Position numbers and translations under genes: made by a program. Of a DNA stretch of 64,000 bases, positions 1 to 44,278 are shown piece after piece (the first letter of the stretch is position 1; each line of letters opens with the position of its first letter). Source of the DNA: Paracoccaceae bacterium. GTDB lineage: Bacteria > Pseudomonadota > Alphaproteobacteria > Rhodobacterales > Rhodobacteraceae. The notes below the pieces were generated by a model. It had not been told where the DNA came from and made no database searches. It was given only the letters and a program-made list of their open reading frames with translations. The DNA is taken from the NCBI GenBank assembly GCA_016936395.1, contig JAFGXY010000043.1:62001-126000 (forward strand). Reading direction: 5' to 3'.

Positions 1-160
1 AAGGCGAGGTCCATGGCCGGGAGGCTAGCCGCTTTGTGCCCTGCGATGCAAGGGGGCGGGTCGGGTGTCTCGCTGTGTTACAAACAGGGAATCATTTAAA
101 AGCATAGGCTTGAGGAATTAAATTAACGGTTTGTTCAGACTTTGGGGGTGTCGCGGGCCG

Positions 161-200
161 CCCCCCCCACCCCATCCCTTCCCCACGAGGGGGGAGGGGG
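161..200 (+). repeat. GC-rich palindromic repeat, family A copy 1
   Basis: A C-run, then ACCCCATCCC, then a hairpin of the form CTTCCCCACGAGGGGGGAG. The same arrangement recurs at about 340, 28638, 28722 (inverted), 44036 and 44138 (inverted). It is intergenic in every case. Function unknown; a transcription-stop or REP-like role is possible. Confidence 0.7.
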
Positions 201-339
201 CGGTCGGTGAATGGGGGTGGGGTTTGGGGCCGGGCCTTGCGCGGCAGCGCCCTGGACCCTGCGGCGCGTCAGACTGGGGTATTTGGTTCGGGCGTGTGCC
301 GCCTTTGTGGTTGGGGGCTGGTGTGGCAGCGCTTGGCTG

Positions 340-378
340 CCCCCCACCCCATCCCGCCCCCACGAGGGGGGCGGGGGC
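340..378 (+). repeat. GC-rich palindromic repeat, family A copy 2
   Basis: Direct copy of the element at 161-200: CCCCCCACCCCATCCC followed by a hairpin GCCCCCACGAGGGGGGC. It ends about 20 bases beyond the stop codon of the minus-strand ABC-F gene, so it could help end that transcript. There is no T-tract on the minus strand, so a classic intrinsic terminator is not evident. Confidence 0.7.
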
Positions 379-399
379 TGTAGCCGGGACCGTGCACCG

Positions 400-11316: not shown

Positions 11317-12402
11317 TCAGCTGAGCCGGATGCGCGGGTTCAGGAAGACATAGCCGATGTCCGAGATCAGCTGTGTCACCAGCACCACCAGCACCGCCAC
11401 CACCGAACAGGCCAGCAGCATTTGAATGTCATTGTTGCTGGCGGCCTGCACCAACGTCCAGCCAAAGCCCTTGTAGTTGAACAGGGTCTCGACAATCACC
11501 ACGCCGTTCAGGAGCCAGGGAAATTGCAGCATGATCACGGTGAAAGGCGCGATCAGCGCGTTGCGCAGCGCGTGTTTCACGATGATCTGGCCGAAGGACA
11601 CGCCCTTGAGCCGCGCGGTGCGGATGTATTGCTGGGTCATCACCTCGGTCATCGACGCCCGTGTCATCCGGGCAATGTAGCCGATGCCATAGAGCGCGAT
11701 GGTGATCACCGGCAGGCCAAAGTTCCAAAAGGTGATCTTGTCCATCGCACTGGTGGCGGTGCCCTGAAACAGGGTGCGGCCTGAAATCCAGCCCCATTCG
11801 GCCAGGATCGGCGATATCCCGGCGGTGGCCGAGCCGAACAGCACGATCAGGATCACGCCCGAGACATATTCCGGGGTGGCGGTGGTGGCGATGGCAAAGG
11901 TCGACAGCACCCGGTCGGTGGTTGTGCCTTCGCGCATCCCCGACAGCACGCCGATCAGCAGGGCGGTGGGCACCATCACCAGCATCACCCACAGCATCAG
12001 CCAGCCGGTATGGCCGAGCGAGCGCGCGAGGATTTCCGACACCGGGCGCTTGAACACCGTGGATTGGCCCCATTCCCCTTGCAGCACGCCACAGCGCGCA
12101 GGTGCCGCCTCGGTGGTGCGGTCGGGTGCGATGCAGCGCCCGGTCACGCGGCCCGACGCGTCGGTATGGGTCCAGCCCGGCACCACACCCAGCCATTCGC
12201 CATAGCGCGCCAGCAGCGGGCGGGTGAAGCCGTGGCTGTCAAGCCAGCTTGCGACCTGATCATCCGACATGCGGACCGAGGCTTCGGATTTGGCAAGCTT
12301 TTCAAGGTTCGGCGTCAGGTTCGTCATGAAGAACACGATGAACGTCAGCGCCAGTGCCGTCAGCAACATGACGCCGGAACGCCGGAGGATGAAGAAAAGC
12401 AT
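11317..12402 (-). CDS. Oligopeptide-type ABC transporter permease (DppB/OppB type)
   Basis: Inner-membrane permease with the DppB N-terminal helix (LFFILRRSGVMLLTALALTF) and about six spans. The transport signature lies near YIRTARLKGVSFGQIIVKHALRNAL. I start it at ATG 12402, with GGAGA in the leader, rather than at the track start 19 codons upstream. The result is 361 residues, the usual length. An enlarged periplasmic loop (about 70-140) carries two Cys. Second gene of the uptake operon. Confidence 0.92.
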   Translation of the reverse strand: MLFFILRRSGVMLLTALALTFIVFFMTNLTPNLEKLAKSEASVRMSDDQVASWLDSHGFTRPLLARYGEWLGVVPGWTHTDASGRVTGRCIAPDRTTEAAPARCGVLQGEWGQSTVFKRPVSEILARSLGHTGWLMLWVMLVMVPTALLIGVLSGMREGTTTDRVLSTFAIATTATPEYVSGVILIVLFGSATAGISPILAEWGWISGRTLFQGTATSAMDKITFWNFGLPVITIALYGIGYIARMTRASMTEVMTQQYIRTARLKGVSFGQIIVKHALRNALIAPFTVIMLQFPWLLNGVVIVETLFNYKGFGWTLVQAASNNDIQMLLACSVVAVLVVLVTQLISDIGYVFLNPRIRLS

Positions 12403-26710: not shown

Positions 26711-27504
26711 CCCGAACCGCCATCATCGCCGGGGCGGGGCGTTTGCCTGCCGCCGTGGCCGGGGTGCTGGACCGGCCGATGGTCTGTGCGCTGGATGGCT
26801 TTGCGCCCGAAGGCGTGGCGGTGGATGTCGCTTTCCGGGTGGAACGTCTGGTGCCGCTGTTTCGCGCGCTCGAGGATGCGGGGGTCACGACGGTGACCTT
26901 TGCCGGGGCCGTGCAGCGGCCAAGGCTGGACCCGGCGCTGTTTGATGCCGCCACCGCGCAACTGGTGCCGCGGCTGCTGGCGGCGATGGCGCAGGGCGAT
27001 GATGCCACCTTGCGCGCGGTGATTGCACTGTTCGAGGAGGCAGGTTTTTCGGTGGCGGGCACGGCGCAGATTGCGCCCGGTCTGGTGCCGGGGGCGGGGG
27101 TTTTGTGCGGGGCGGTGTCGGACCGCGACAGGGATGATGCGACCCGCGCCGCGGCCATTGTTGCCGCCTTGGGCGCGGTCGATGTGGGGCAGGGCTGTGT
27201 GGTGGCGCAAGGCTTGTGTCTGGCGGTCGAGGCGTTGCCGGGCACCGATGCGATGCTGGCCGGGGTGGCCGGTTTGCCCGTGGCTTTGCGCTCCCTTGGC
27301 ACGCGCGGGCTGTTCTACAAGGCCCCCAAACCGGGGCAGGACATGCGGGTGGATCTGCCGACGCTTGGCCCTGACACGGTGGCGCGGGTGGCCGAAGCGG
27401 GCTTGGGCGGCATTGTCTGGCAGGCGGGCGGCGTGATCTGCCTTGACCTGCCCGAGATGACGCGCGCCGCCAGTGATGCGGGCCTGTTCCTGTGGGCGCG
27501 CTGA
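26707..27504 (+). CDS. lpxI: UDP-2,3-diacylglucosamine diphosphatase LpxI
   Basis: Alphaproteobacterial replacement for LpxH that hydrolyses UDP-2,3-diacylglucosamine to lipid X. The N-terminal IIAGAGRLPAAVA and C-terminal KPGQDMRVDLPTLGPDTV are typical of the DUF1009/LpxI family. 265 residues. Begins with ATGA overlap to lpxA and overlaps lpxB by 13 bases. Confidence 0.95.
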   Translation: MTRTAIIAGAGRLPAAVAGVLDRPMVCALDGFAPEGVAVDVAFRVERLVPLFRALEDAGVTTVTFAGAVQRPRLDPALFDAATAQLVPRLLAAMAQGDDATLRAVIALFEEAGFSVAGTAQIAPGLVPGAGVLCGAVSDRDRDDATRAAAIVAALGAVDVGQGCVVAQGLCLAVEALPGTDAMLAGVAGLPVALRSLGTRGLFYKAPKPGQDMRVDLPTLGPDTVARVAEAGLGGIVWQAGGVICLDLPEMTRAASDAGLFLWAR

Positions 27505-28634
27505 CGCTGTTTCTGATCGCCGGGGAGCCTTCGGGTGACCGCTTGGGGGCGGCCTTGATGGCGGGGCTGAAAACCCTGTCGCCGGGGGTGACCTTCGCCG
27601 GCGTGGGCGGGCCATTGATGCAGGCCGAAGGGCTGGAGAGCCTGTTCCCGATGGAAGAATTGTCGGTGATGGGGCTGGTCGAGGTGCTGCCGAAGTATTT
27701 CGCCCTGAAGCGCCGCATCGCCCAAGCGGCTCAGGCGGTGCTGGAGTCGGGCGCGCAGGCGCTGATCACCATCGACAGCCCGGATTTTTGCCTGCGGGTG
27801 GCAGGCATCGTCAAGGCCGCGCGGCCCGACTTTCGCACCATCCACTACGTCGCGCCCTCGGTCTGGGCCTGGCGGCCGGGCCGGGCGGCCAAGATGGCGA
27901 AGGTGGTCGATCACGTGCTGGCGCTGTTGCCGTTCGAGCCGCCCTATATGACCGCCGCCGGCATGAGTTGCGATTTCGTCGGGCATCCGGTGGTGGCCGA
28001 GCCTTTGGCCAGCGCCGCCGAGCGCGCCATGATGGCGGGCGAGGGGCCGCTGATCCTTGCCCTGCCGGGGTCGCGCAAGGGCGAGGTATCACGGCTGGCC
28101 CCGGTGCTGGGGCAGGTGCTGGCGCGGGTCAAGGCGGTGCATCCCGACGCACGGGTGGCCTTGCCCACGCTGCGCGGCGTGGCGGGGCTGGTGCGCGATC
28201 TGACTGCCGATTGGCCGATTGTGCCGCAGATCCTCGAAGAGGACGCCACAAAGCGCGCGGCCTTTGCAGCGGCGGATGTGGCGATTGCGGCCTCGGGGAC
28301 GGTGTCGCTGGAACTGGCCGCGAACGGCTGCCCGATGGTGATTGCCTATGACATGAACCCCTTGACGCTGTGGCTGATGCGGCGCGCGGCGCTGATCGAC
28401 ACGGTGACACTGGTCAATCTGGTCTCGGAAAGCCGGCCAATTCCCGAGTTCATCGGCGCGCGCTGCCGTGCCGATCTGATCGCGCCCGAGGTCTTGCGGT
28501 TGCTGGCCGCGGGTGGCGGGGCACAACGGGCGGCGATGCAGGTGACGATGCAGCGGCTGGGACGCGGCGGCGAGGCCCCGGGGTTACGCGCGGCGCGGTC
28601 GGTGTTGGGGGTGTTGGGGTCGCTGACCGCATAA
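27492..28634 (+). CDS. lpxB: Lipid-A-disaccharide synthase
   Basis: GT19 glycosyltransferase that condenses lipid X with UDP-2,3-diacylglucosamine at the inner membrane. LFLIAGEPSGDRLGAALM is the diagnostic N-terminus; VAPSVWAWRPGRAAKM and ASGTVSLELA are conserved. GTG start inside the end of lpxI. 380 residues. Last gene of the plus-strand envelope block; a palindromic repeat pair follows. Confidence 0.96.
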   Translation: MGALTLFLIAGEPSGDRLGAALMAGLKTLSPGVTFAGVGGPLMQAEGLESLFPMEELSVMGLVEVLPKYFALKRRIAQAAQAVLESGAQALITIDSPDFCLRVAGIVKAARPDFRTIHYVAPSVWAWRPGRAAKMAKVVDHVLALLPFEPPYMTAAGMSCDFVGHPVVAEPLASAAERAMMAGEGPLILALPGSRKGEVSRLAPVLGQVLARVKAVHPDARVALPTLRGVAGLVRDLTADWPIVPQILEEDATKRAAFAAADVAIAASGTVSLELAANGCPMVIAYDMNPLTLWLMRRAALIDTVTLVNLVSESRPIPEFIGARCRADLIAPEVLRLLAAGGGAQRAAMQVTMQRLGRGGEAPGLRAARSVLGVLGSLTA

Positions 28635-28637
28635 ATG

Positions 28638-28677
28638 CCCCCCACCCCCAGCCCCTCCCCACAAGGGGGAGGGGAGG
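28638..28677 (+). repeat. GC-rich palindromic repeat, family A copy 3
   Basis: CCCCCCACCCCCAGCCC followed by CTCCCCACAAGGGGGAG. It begins four bases after the lpxB stop and is paired with an inverted copy at 28722, so the two flank about 45 bases between convergent lpxB and the DsbA-like gene. Confidence 0.75.
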
Positions 28678-28721
28678 CGAGAGGTGGTTGGGGCATTCTC
28701 CCCGCCGCAACCGTTAGGGCA

Positions 28722-28762
28722 CCTCCCTCCCCCCTTGTGGGGGGAGGGATGGGGTGGGGGGC
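28722..28762 (-). repeat. GC-rich palindromic repeat, family A copy 4 (inverted)
   Basis: Reverse-complement copy of 28638-28677, ending GGATGGGGTGGGGGGC on the plus strand. Together the pair could form one long cruciform of about 125 bases. It lies 20 bases past the DsbA-like stop. Confidence 0.75.
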
Positions 28763-28781
28763 TTGGGCGAGGGAGCGGACC

Positions 28782-29519
28782 TCAGCCCGCGCGCTGACCG
28801 GCGACGATCTGGCGCATGCCATCGAGCGGCACATAGCCGCGCACCATGGTTTCATCGACGATGAAGGTGGGGGTGCCGCTGATGTCCATCATGCTGCCAA
28901 GCGCGTGGTTGGTGGCGATGATCGCCTGCACCTCGGGGGTCAGCATCTTGTCGGCAACGGCAGCCGGATCATGGCCCAGATCGGCGGCCAGCCGCGACAG
29001 GGTTTCCGGGGTCGCATCGCCGCGCAGGGCGATCAGCGCGTCATGCGCGGCCTTGTAGGCGTCGTCGCCATGCAGCAGGCGCACAGCGATGGCAAATTGC
29101 GACGACAGGGTGGATTGTTCGCCTAGGATCGGGAATTCCTTCATCACCAGTTTGATGTTGCCATCGGATTTGACCAGCTCGGTCACCTCGTCATGTGCCT
29201 TGCGGCAATAGCCGCAGCGGTAATCGACAAACTCGACAATGGTGATGTTGCCCTCAAGGTTGCCACCGGCCCAGGAGTTCGGGTCGCGGTAGATCAGATC
29301 GGCGTTGTCGCGCAGCATTTGCAGGTCGCGGTTGGCGGCCTGCTGTTGCTGGCGGGCGTTCAGCACATCCATGGCCTCGATCAGAACCTCGGGTTCTTCC
29401 AGCAGAAAGGCGCGGACCTCGGCGCGGAACGCCGCGCGTTCCTCGGCCGTCATTTCGGCCAGGGCGGCGGTGGAGGTAAGCATCAACGCGGTGATGCCGA
29501 TCAGTGTCTTGCGGATCAT
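28782..29519 (-). CDS. DsbA-family thioredoxin-like periplasmic protein (ScsC-like layout)
   Basis: Probable periplasmic thiol-disulfide oxidoreductase. From ATG 29519: signal peptide (KTLIGITALMLTSTAALA), a helical N-terminal segment (about 25-75) like the oligomerisation region of ScsC-type proteins, then a thioredoxin fold with CGYC at 102-105 and the cis-Pro loop GTPTF at about 220. 245 residues. The track start 61 codons upstream would overlap the divergent aminotransferase. Substrate unknown; it could be DsbA-like, or DsbC/ScsC-like if it oligomerises. Confidence 0.88.
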   Translation of the reverse strand: MIRKTLIGITALMLTSTAALAEMTAEERAAFRAEVRAFLLEEPEVLIEAMDVLNARQQQQAANRDLQMLRDNADLIYRDPNSWAGGNLEGNITIVEFVDYRCGYCRKAHDEVTELVKSDGNIKLVMKEFPILGEQSTLSSQFAIAVRLLHGDDAYKAAHDALIALRGDATPETLSRLAADLGHDPAAVADKMLTPEVQAIIATNHALGSMMDISGTPTFIVDETMVRGYVPLDGMRQIVAGQRAG

Positions 29520-42600: not shown

Positions 42601-42999
42601 TTGCTGTCGGCGATCTCGGTGGTGGGCCTGCTGGAGCAGTTGAATGGCGAAGGGCTGGCGTTTTCGGATGCAGCGGCCGATTTCATCATCACCCCGCAGG
42701 CGATAGAAATCACCAGCGGATCGGCCATCGGCGCCAGCCTTGGCGTGTCACTGGCGGGGGTTTATGGCACGCAGACCAAGCGGCTGGCGATGCAGGGTGT
42801 GGTGTCGCCGGTCTATCTGTTCAATGGCATCGGCGCGATGCTGACCCGGCGGGGTGAAGGTTTGTTCGGTTTCAATTATGACTTGCGCGGCACCGCCGAT
42901 GCGCCGCAGGTGCAGGTCAACCCGCTGTCGATTCTGACGCCCGGCATGTTTCGCGAGATTTTTCGCAGCCCGGCCCCGGTCTTGCGAAAAGGCAACTGA
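39622..42999 (+). CDS. Large AsmA/YhdP-like protein (DUF3971)
   Basis: About 1125 residues: an Arg-rich cytosolic N-terminus, one membrane helix (about 38-60, [21 protein letters not shown]), then a long beta-rich periplasmic region, and AsmA-like C-terminal domain with [28 protein letters not shown]. YhdP/TamB-type proteins are thought to bridge the periplasm and move phospholipids to the outer membrane. GTG 39622 is preferred because GAGGAG precedes it; ATG 39586 has no such site. queA overlaps by one base. Confidence 0.85.
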
Positions 43000-44030
43000 T
43001 GCAACTTTCCGATTTCGACTTTGACCTTCCCGAAGGCCTGATCGCCACGCGCCCGGCGCGGCCTCGTTCAGCGGCACGCCTGCTGCTGGCCCAAGGCGAT
43101 ACGATCACCGATCTGCACGTGCGCGATCTGCCCGGCCTGTTTCGCCCCGGCGATCGGCTGGTGTTGAACAACACCCGCGTGATCCCGGCGCGTCTGACCG
43201 GGCAGCGCCGTCGTGGCGATGCCGCGGCGAGGGTCGAGATCACCCTGATGGAGCCTGCCGCAACCGGCTGGCGGGCGATGGCCAAGCCGTTGCGCAAGGT
43301 GAACCCGGGCGAGGTCATCACGTTTTCTGCCGATCTGTCGGCAGAGGTGGTCGAGAAATCCGAAACCGACCTGCGGCTGGTGTTCAACCTGACCGGGGAT
43401 GATTTTGACGCGGCTTTGGCACAGGCGGGCGCGATGCCGCTGCCGCCCTATATCGCTGCCCGGCGCGCGCCCGACGCGCAGGACAATGACGATTACCAGA
43501 CCGTTTTCGCCCGCCACAAGGGCGCGGTTGCCGCCCCCACCGCCTCGTTGCATTTCGACGCCGCGTTGCTGGCCGCGCTGCAAGACAAGGGTGTCAGCTT
43601 TACCGAGGTGACCCTGCATGTCGGCGCCGGCACCTTTCTGCCGGTCAAGGTTGAAGACGTGACCACCCACAAGATGCACGCCGAATGGGGGCAGGTCACA
43701 GCGCAGGCGGCCGAACAGATAAACGCCACCCGTGCGGCGGGCGGGCGGGTCATTCCGGTCGGCACCACCGCCTTGCGGCTGATCGAGACCGCGGCGCGAT
43801 CAGGCCGGGTCGAACCCTGGGAGGGGCCGACCGATATTTTCATCTACCCCGGCTTTGCCTTCCACACCACCGATGCGCTGATCACCAACTTTCACCTGCC
43901 GAAATCGACGCTACTGATGCTGGTGTCGGCCCTGATGGGCAAGGACCGGGTGGACCGGATCTATGCGCACGCGATTGCGCAGGGCTATCGGTTCTTCAGC
44001 TATGGCGACGCGTCGCTGCTCATCCCGTGA
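42999..44030 (+). CDS. queA: S-adenosylmethionine:tRNA ribosyltransferase-isomerase
   Basis: Queuosine pathway enzyme that transfers and isomerises the ribosyl group of SAM onto 7-aminomethyl-7-deazaguanine in t[25 protein letters not shown] at the N-terminus, [22 protein letters not shown] in the middle and [19 protein letters not shown] near the C-terminus are diagnostic. 343 residues. ATG begins on the last base of the previous stop. Confidence 0.96.
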
Positions 44031-44035
44031 AGCGG

Positions 44036-44077
44036 CCCCCCCCCACCCCATCCCTCCCCCACAAAGGGGGGAGGGTG
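44036..44077 (+). repeat. GC-rich palindromic repeat, family A copy 5
   Basis: CCCCCCCACCCCATCCC followed by CTCCCCCACAAAGGGGGGAG. Begins six bases after the queA stop; an inverted copy follows at 44138. Confidence 0.75.
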
Positions 44078-44137
44078 GTGCTTCGTGCGTGGCCTGAGCA
44101 CCTTTCGGGGTCTGGGCGTTGCACCTGAAATTGCGCG

Positions 44138-44177
44138 GCTCCCCTCCCCCCGTGGGGCGGGGATGGGGGTGGGGGGA
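44138..44177 (-). repeat. GC-rich palindromic repeat, family A copy 6 (inverted)
   Basis: Plus-strand CTCCCCTCCCCCCGTGGGG then GGATGGGGGTGGGGGG, i.e. the reverse of copy 5. The pair spans about 140 bases between queA and the MFS gene, spaced like copies 3 and 4. Confidence 0.75.
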
Positions 44178-44278
44178 CACTTGCGCCCCCGCCGCTTTCC
44201 CCCGACAGACCGTCGCCTGCGACATGACATTTTTATCCGCCAAGCCTAGTCTGGCAACACCGACCGAAGGAATCCCTC

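Follow-up and report, generated by a model that had tools for sequence, protein, structure and literature searches.

The 64-kb stretch of DNA analysed here, termed the window, raises the question of what the short C-rich hairpins behind lpxB and queA are and by which means such inverted pairs spread. All six copies of the original prediction are present in the window, and its inverted pairs after lpxB and queA as well as its direct copies in 161-378 were recovered with a covariance model, whose matches refined the coordinates (Table 1). Each copy is about 43-46 nt long; its C-rich tail (about GCCCCCCACCCCAT) is unpaired and is joined to a hairpin with a 9-bp stem and a loop of 5-6 nt, and the element consensus is GCCCCCCACCCCATCCCTCCCCCACGAGGGGGGAGGGAGGCGC. 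Two subtypes differ in the position of one T-A stem pair, subtype A having the stem CCCTCCCCC/GGGGGAGGG and subtype B the stem CCCCTCCCC/GGGGAGGGG. The exact 11-mer CCCCCCACCCC occurs six times in the window, each time within one of the six copies; with one mismatch allowed there are 10 matches vs 4.4 in shuffles. The inverted pairs begin a few nucleotides past the stop codons of lpxB (28634) and queA (44030), and the folding that had been predicted for them exceeds all shuffles in both cases (z = -5.1 for the lpxB pair and -4.9 for the queA pair). When 16 copies are aligned, which requires almost no gaps, every cell of the stem is paired, and two of its pairs vary on both sides; the second copy of the window holds a compensating G-C in the stem.

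Table 1. Repeat copies, their spacers and neighbouring genes in the window. Copy coordinates are those of the covariance-model matches; genomes are given by our working numbers.
Feature	Position	Strand	Basis or remark
Copy 1, C-tail and hairpin, direct repeat of copy 2	160-205	+	covariance-model match G000:C9:62160-62205
Copy 2, stem G-C replacing T-A (CCCGCCCCC/GGGGGCGGG)	337-382	+	covariance-model match G000:C9:62337-62382
lpxB, upstream neighbour of first inverted pair	27492-28634	+	orthologues in 14 congeners
Copy 3, subtype B, left end of first inverted pair	28636-28681	+	covariance-model match
Spacer of first inverted pair	28682-28717	.	unrelated to same-junction spacers of G003 and G002
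Copy 4, subtype A, right end of first inverted pair	28718-28764	-	covariance-model match
Gene convergent with lpxB, thioredoxin/DsbA-like (named by sequence inspection only)	28782-29519	-	
queA, upstream neighbour of second inverted pair	42999-44030	+	
Copy 5, subtype A, left end of second inverted pair	44036-44082	+	covariance-model match
Spacer of second inverted pair	44083-44133	.	common by descent with G003
Copy 6, subtype B-like with stem mismatch, right end of second inverted pair	44134-44178	-	covariance-model match

Two further observations concern the window itself. Its first 400 nt, which include both direct copies and lie left of a gene ending at 400, are without counterpart beside that gene in the congeners G003, G002 and G007, where it has three different neighbours; this part of the window is a rearrangement or insertion boundary. 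A search against Rfam gave no match at the six elements, and the only Rfam family found in the window was Cis52_sRNA (Ruegeria cis52 sRNA) at 11562-11740 on the plus strand, with 88 bits.

The elements extend far beyond these three loci. With the covariance model, termed R1, 50 copies were counted in the 3.07-Mb draft genome from which the window derives (G000), along with 60 in G002 and 42 in G003, five in G015 and two in G004, the remaining congeners having none at the threshold used. The genome-wide count of copies and orientations proposed with the original prediction shows inverted pairs to be the prevailing arrangement: in G000, G002 and G003, 50 of 56 adjacent couples consist of a plus copy followed by a minus copy with the C-rich ends outward, and the gaps within couples measure mostly 29-66 nt. 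Pairs of A with B account for 21 of the 32 typed, where 15.2 would be expected, a preference for unlike subtypes that is weaker than the 5/5 in E. coli.

These features recall the REP dimers published for other bacteria, and the original prediction had placed the elements near REP/BIME repeats and pointed to a REP-associated tyrosine transposase (RAYT) as a possible partner. The first part of this comparison stands insofar as dispersed inverted pairs do spread within genomes, as seen from a copied trio in G002 and from site polymorphism (below), while the link to RAYT fell away. Inverted pairs, variable spacers, intergenic sites and the preference for unlike partners all resemble REP dimers (PMC3733652) and would suit a REP/REPIN family mobilised by RAYT, but the RAYT domain PF01797 was found neither in G000 (91.5% complete) nor in G002 (100%) and G003 (99%), although the same search matched the E. 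coli and Caulobacter genomes used as positive controls. A RAYT gene in the missing part of G000 could not account for the latter two genomes, and the only congener above the PF01797 cut-off, G004, is one with two element copies. No GTAG tag, CGTC tag or CCA tail occurs in the element consensus. With no PF01797 in the high-copy genomes and no GTAG tag, the RAYT-linked REP family was largely ruled out as the class of these elements, and mobilisation by RAYT is extremely improbable. The CGTC-tagged REPs of Alphaproteobacteria (Di Nocera et al., 2013, PMC3733652) are closer in being alphaproteobacterial, in forming mostly pairs of unlike elements and in having no RAYT of their own, but the elements described here lack the CGTC tag and the CCA tail and are unrelated in sequence. 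The CGTC repeats have no known partner gene, and the same authors noted that untagged families exist and raised functional association with specific proteins as a question (PMC3733652).

Where the elements lie could also hint at a function. They are mostly intergenic, only 8 of 75 clusters overlapping a gene call, and on the gene calls of a simple in-house caller the clusters are enriched between convergent genes (28/66 vs 39/253 background gaps, p = 6e-6) and often start 1-30 nt past a stop codon. This is the placement expected if the elements were kept as 3'-end signals, with the C-tail acting as a Rho-loading site and the hairpin shielding the end of the transcript, which between convergent neighbours would work in both directions; the elements also diverge half as fast as their surroundings, differing at 7.2% of positions vs 15.0% at nine shared sites. 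However, single copies between codirectional genes lie 7 times in sense vs 4 times in antisense, most congeners have no element at the same gaps, and insertion tolerance accounts for the location equally well, so that we regard 3'-end signalling as an improbable reason for the elements, though it could be a secondary use of them. Two narrower candidates were rejected as well: an intrinsic terminator, as no T-run follows the stem, and a strand-specific Rho or mRNA-end signal, as the single copies have no clear strand bias.

Comparison of the same gaps in relatives, as the original prediction had advised, revealed sites that are present or absent among congeners. At the lpxB junction a pair is found in G000, G003 and G002, with unrelated spacers and with differing stop-codon distance and subtype order, whereas in G007 the gap is short and empty, and a pair is missing from every other congener examined. 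At the queA site, G000 and G003 have inherited the pair in common and it is absent from G002 and G007, and one further pair of G002 occupies a gap that measures 39 nt in the other three genomes compared. Presence and absence can be seen in this way, but the flanks are too diverged to read insertion junctions or target duplications. Three pairs of G002 are alike in spacer and ends, and because their similarity runs through the spacer and stops at the outer tails, the whole pair was copied. Apart from this trio and from orthologues, spacers are mostly unrelated between loci, which rules out the spacer as a conserved functional part. The strong identity of the copies had been taken as a sign of recent spread; this holds at most for a part of them, since about 17 of 25-29 clusters lie at orthologous places in G000 and its closest congener G003, and movement is therefore infrequent, slow or old.

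Two local changes were noticed at the same junctions. At the queA site of G003 (contig C13), 22 nt of the first copy are duplicated in tandem (CACCCCATCCCTCCCCCACGAA twice), a change within the element that resembles slippage. In G004 and G009, the gap 3' of lpxB holds another repeat, GGGGGCTGCCGCCCCCTTGGACCCCCGCGAGTATTTTTGTCAAGATGAAG, which forms an inverted pair in G009; this gap thus accepts unrelated repeat families.

Judged by their architecture, the elements are a GC-rich, Rhodobacteraceae branch of the BoxC/PIT/triplex-motif superfamily. BoxC, PIT element and triplex motif (TM) are names for one repeat of 34-37 nt in E. coli (Holder et al., 2015, PMC4666352), for which that paper cites Hoyne et al. 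(2000) as an earlier source. Both repeats have a pyrimidine hairpin with a short turn and an adjacent third-strand tract, and both are intergenic, form inverted pairs of unlike subtypes and are dispersed in many genomes. They differ in the stem, which is CCCTCTCCC in E. coli and CCCTCCCCC or CCCCTCCCC here, in the tail, which is nearly pure C here, and in the 3' end, to which AGGCGC is added here. An alignment and pair counts show the hairpin and its third-strand tract in the elements described here, and the same architecture is found in sister repeat types and in E. coli. The register of tail and stem is kept in 97 of 102 parsed copies (run lengths 4/3 in 58 and 5/4 in 39), a count that leaves 29 of 131 copies unparsed and that two founder lineages may inflate, and the interruption of the tail is aligned with the stem's T-A pair, which is what T:A-T triads would demand. 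The G-rich complement of the C-tail is predicted to be able to fold back on the stem and to serve as its third strand, and a quadruplex of the G-rich strand could also be conceived. Triplex formation in vitro has been shown for the E. coli motif only, and neither a linked gene class nor an association with mobile elements was reported for it (PMC4666352).

A linked gene was found for the elements described here. In G000, G002 and G003, repeat pairs flank a small gene on either side; it is about 510-540 bp long as called in G000 and G003 and belongs to PF04480 (DUF559) with E 2e-28. A total of 397 genomes of the family were surveyed, like the other sets of hundreds of genomes, with strict filters and a limit on the candidates scored, so that copy numbers are minimum values and genomes with weak matches may have gone unnoticed. 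Of these genomes, 24 have R1 repeats and 21 have DUF559 (E up to 1e-15), and 14 have both vs 1.3 expected (Fisher p = 9e-15). In 12 of these 14, DUF559 lies at most a few hundred bases from R1-type copies, and in the other two, G324 and G298, sister-type repeats adjoin it. The R1-cognate DUF559 clade is accompanied by the repeat in 12 of 12 sampled genomes (p = 1e-16), and in all seven family genomes having DUF559 and no R1 match, a sister-type inverted pair adjoins the gene, e.g. CCCTCACCCCGACCCTCTCCCGCAGGCGGGAGAGGG. The motif CCCTCACCCYNNCCCTCTCCC, with 2 mismatches, has a median of 10 occurrences per genome (range 0-66) in 11 DUF559-positive genomes and a median of 0 (range 0-4) in 18 DUF559-negative ones, the reversed control giving 0-5.

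The association extends over the phylum. DUF559 (PF04480) was detected in 111 of 399 sampled Pseudomonadota genomes, and C-tail hairpins lie no more than 450 bp from the gene at 49 of the 56 stand-alone DUF559 loci examined; the remaining seven have related inverted hairpins as judged by eye. With a general hairpin finder, a hand-made rule whose only check was random stretches, C-tail hairpins were found at 11/11 DUF559 loci (37 in 9.9 kb) vs 5/320 random windows (9 in 400 kb), the control being 20 stretches of 20 kb from 11 of the DUF559-locus genomes. Repeat subtype also tracks the DUF559 tree, requiring 18 changes vs 29.7 when shuffled, and 0 of 200 shuffles reached as low a number; in one clade (support 100/99) all 14 rows accompany R1-type repeats, and the genome G176 has two DUF559 genes of different clades, each adjoining its own repeat subtype. 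Our search of the open-access literature found no link of DUF559 to repeats, and earlier work in subscription journals is possible.

Several DUF559 loci have peculiarities of their own. At R1-clade loci the reading frame continues into the adjoining repeat, which consequently forms a translated C-terminal tail of the protein (PPPHPSPTRGEG...SPPPRGEGSGVGG). Eight genera of the family apparently have DUF559 and a repeat pair inside the phosphonate (phn) operon by phnJ, named by inspection. In G623, a class-mate genome, and on Sinorhizobium pSymB, long inverted repeats bracket DUF559 and reach well beyond the hairpin.

Outside the family, the E. coli K-12 gene ycjD (b1289) is itself a DUF559 gene (E 1e-49), and motif no. 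9 in the BoxC list of Holder et al. (PMC4666352) lies directly downstream of it. Another E. coli strain has an intact inverted pair at ycjD, the second copy overlapping the ycjD end, and the gene is present in 3366 of 5426 E. coli genomes. In two ycjD-minus strains, homology in the fabI-sapF region does not reach the BoxC copy, and fabI is followed by an operon for RND efflux; the region was replaced by this operon, so it is not a clean empty site and shows no insertion. A similar neighbourhood of DUF559 and repeats was found at plasmid loci of Deinococcus, Azospirillum, Sphingomonas, Sinorhizobium, Photobacterium, Synechocystis and Pseudanabaena. Two Deinococcus species have the order repeat, DUF559, inverted repeat, and in three Deinococcus species a repeat-flanked DUF559 on plasmids occupies three different positions near hpa genes. 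At one Deinococcus plasmid locus a 15-bp inverted extension (GGGCCAGCGTTGCTG) lies outside the repeats. The phage collection gave 2 DUF559 matches and the 72,556 plasmid records gave 43; so few matches indicate that DUF559 is not a typical mobile-element gene.

The DUF559 protein matches PDB 3hrl by sequence (E 2e-14), and the best structural match of its predicted model (mean pLDDT 77) is again 3hrl, followed by the I-Bth0305I catalytic domain (3r3p), with Vsr (1vsr) lower, all as moderate matches (TM about 0.4-0.55). E15, D45, E56, D58 and H62 are invariant across 16 diverse members. With moderate confidence, DUF559 is predicted to be a Vsr-like endonuclease with a fold like those of Vsr and the homing endonuclease I-Bth0305I. 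The protein of 3hrl and VsrA of Caulobacter belong to the same family as the repeat-linked gene, whereas Vsr and I-Bth0305I have a similar fold only; I-Bth0305I is located in an intron and not among repeats. Vsr and DUF559 proteins were described earlier without mention of flanking repeats, unlike the repeat-nested gene found here. For VsrA, a DUF559 protein, an SOS response was described in cells without cytosine methylase, and the protein was interpreted as a mismatch-repair nuclease (PMC12907096).

That DUF559 adjoins such repeats in nearly every locus checked, across several phyla, suggests that this nuclease is the missing spreading enzyme. We think it probable, with considerable reserve, that the repeat pairs are the ends of a mobile unit spread by the DUF559 nuclease and that the pairs of the window are gene-less derivatives of it. 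Two copies with their C-tails outward would form both ends of a short mobile unit, whose complete, autonomous form would be repeat-DUF559-repeat with the gene between or beside the ends, and the pairs of the window would relate to it as MITEs do to their transposon. The nuclease would recognise the folded or triplex end and cut there, and repair would then copy the unit into new sites; the copies that survive would gather past stop codons and in gaps between convergent genes, the sites at which they cause the least harm.

Several points count against mobilisation by DUF559: some high-copy genomes are without the cognate gene (G073 has no DUF559, and that of G324 is of another clade), the closest relatives have most sites in common, phage and plasmid matches are few, and co-occurrence and nesting would also be expected of a passenger or guard enzyme. 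The repeats may then be spread by other means, with DUF559 as a structure-specific repair or guard nuclease that is surrounded by them or hitch-hikes with them. Such a role would account for the co-occurrence and agrees with the Vsr-like fold, with the reading of Caulobacter VsrA as a mismatch-repair nuclease (PMC12907096) and with genomes that retain repeats without DUF559, but it leaves unexplained the physical nesting of the gene among repeats in almost every genome and the match of repeat subtype to DUF559 clade, including two such matches in one genome. We hold it to be rather unlikely, and take the mobile unit spread by DUF559 as the working explanation.

To our knowledge, how BoxC/PIT repeats spread was never explained; they have been familiar from E. 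coli since the 1990s and are known in hundreds of genomes. A linked nuclease makes this spread testable, and ycjD beside BoxC in E. coli K-12 is a ready pair for that purpose. In our estimate it is an evenly balanced question whether the BoxC/PIT repeats of several bacterial phyla represent the termini and remnants of a class of mobile elements not recognised so far, moved by a DUF559 nuclease of the Vsr and homing-endonuclease type that recognises a hairpin or triplex end. Short palindromic repeats in inverted pairs, a variable spacer, intragenomic spread and a single-copy linked gene are common to these elements and to REP/REPIN with RAYT, but the elements here have neither the GTAG tag nor a tyrosine transposase, and their linked gene has a PD-(D/E)XK nuclease fold. 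We know of no REP system with such chemistry, in which a PD-(D/E)XK-type nuclease serves short palindromic repeats. If true, this would add one more REP-type system to the RAYT-linked GTAG repeats and the orphan CGTC repeats; it would suggest a role for DUF559, a very common protein of unknown function, and could change how solitary Vsr-like proteins, Caulobacter VsrA among them, are interpreted.
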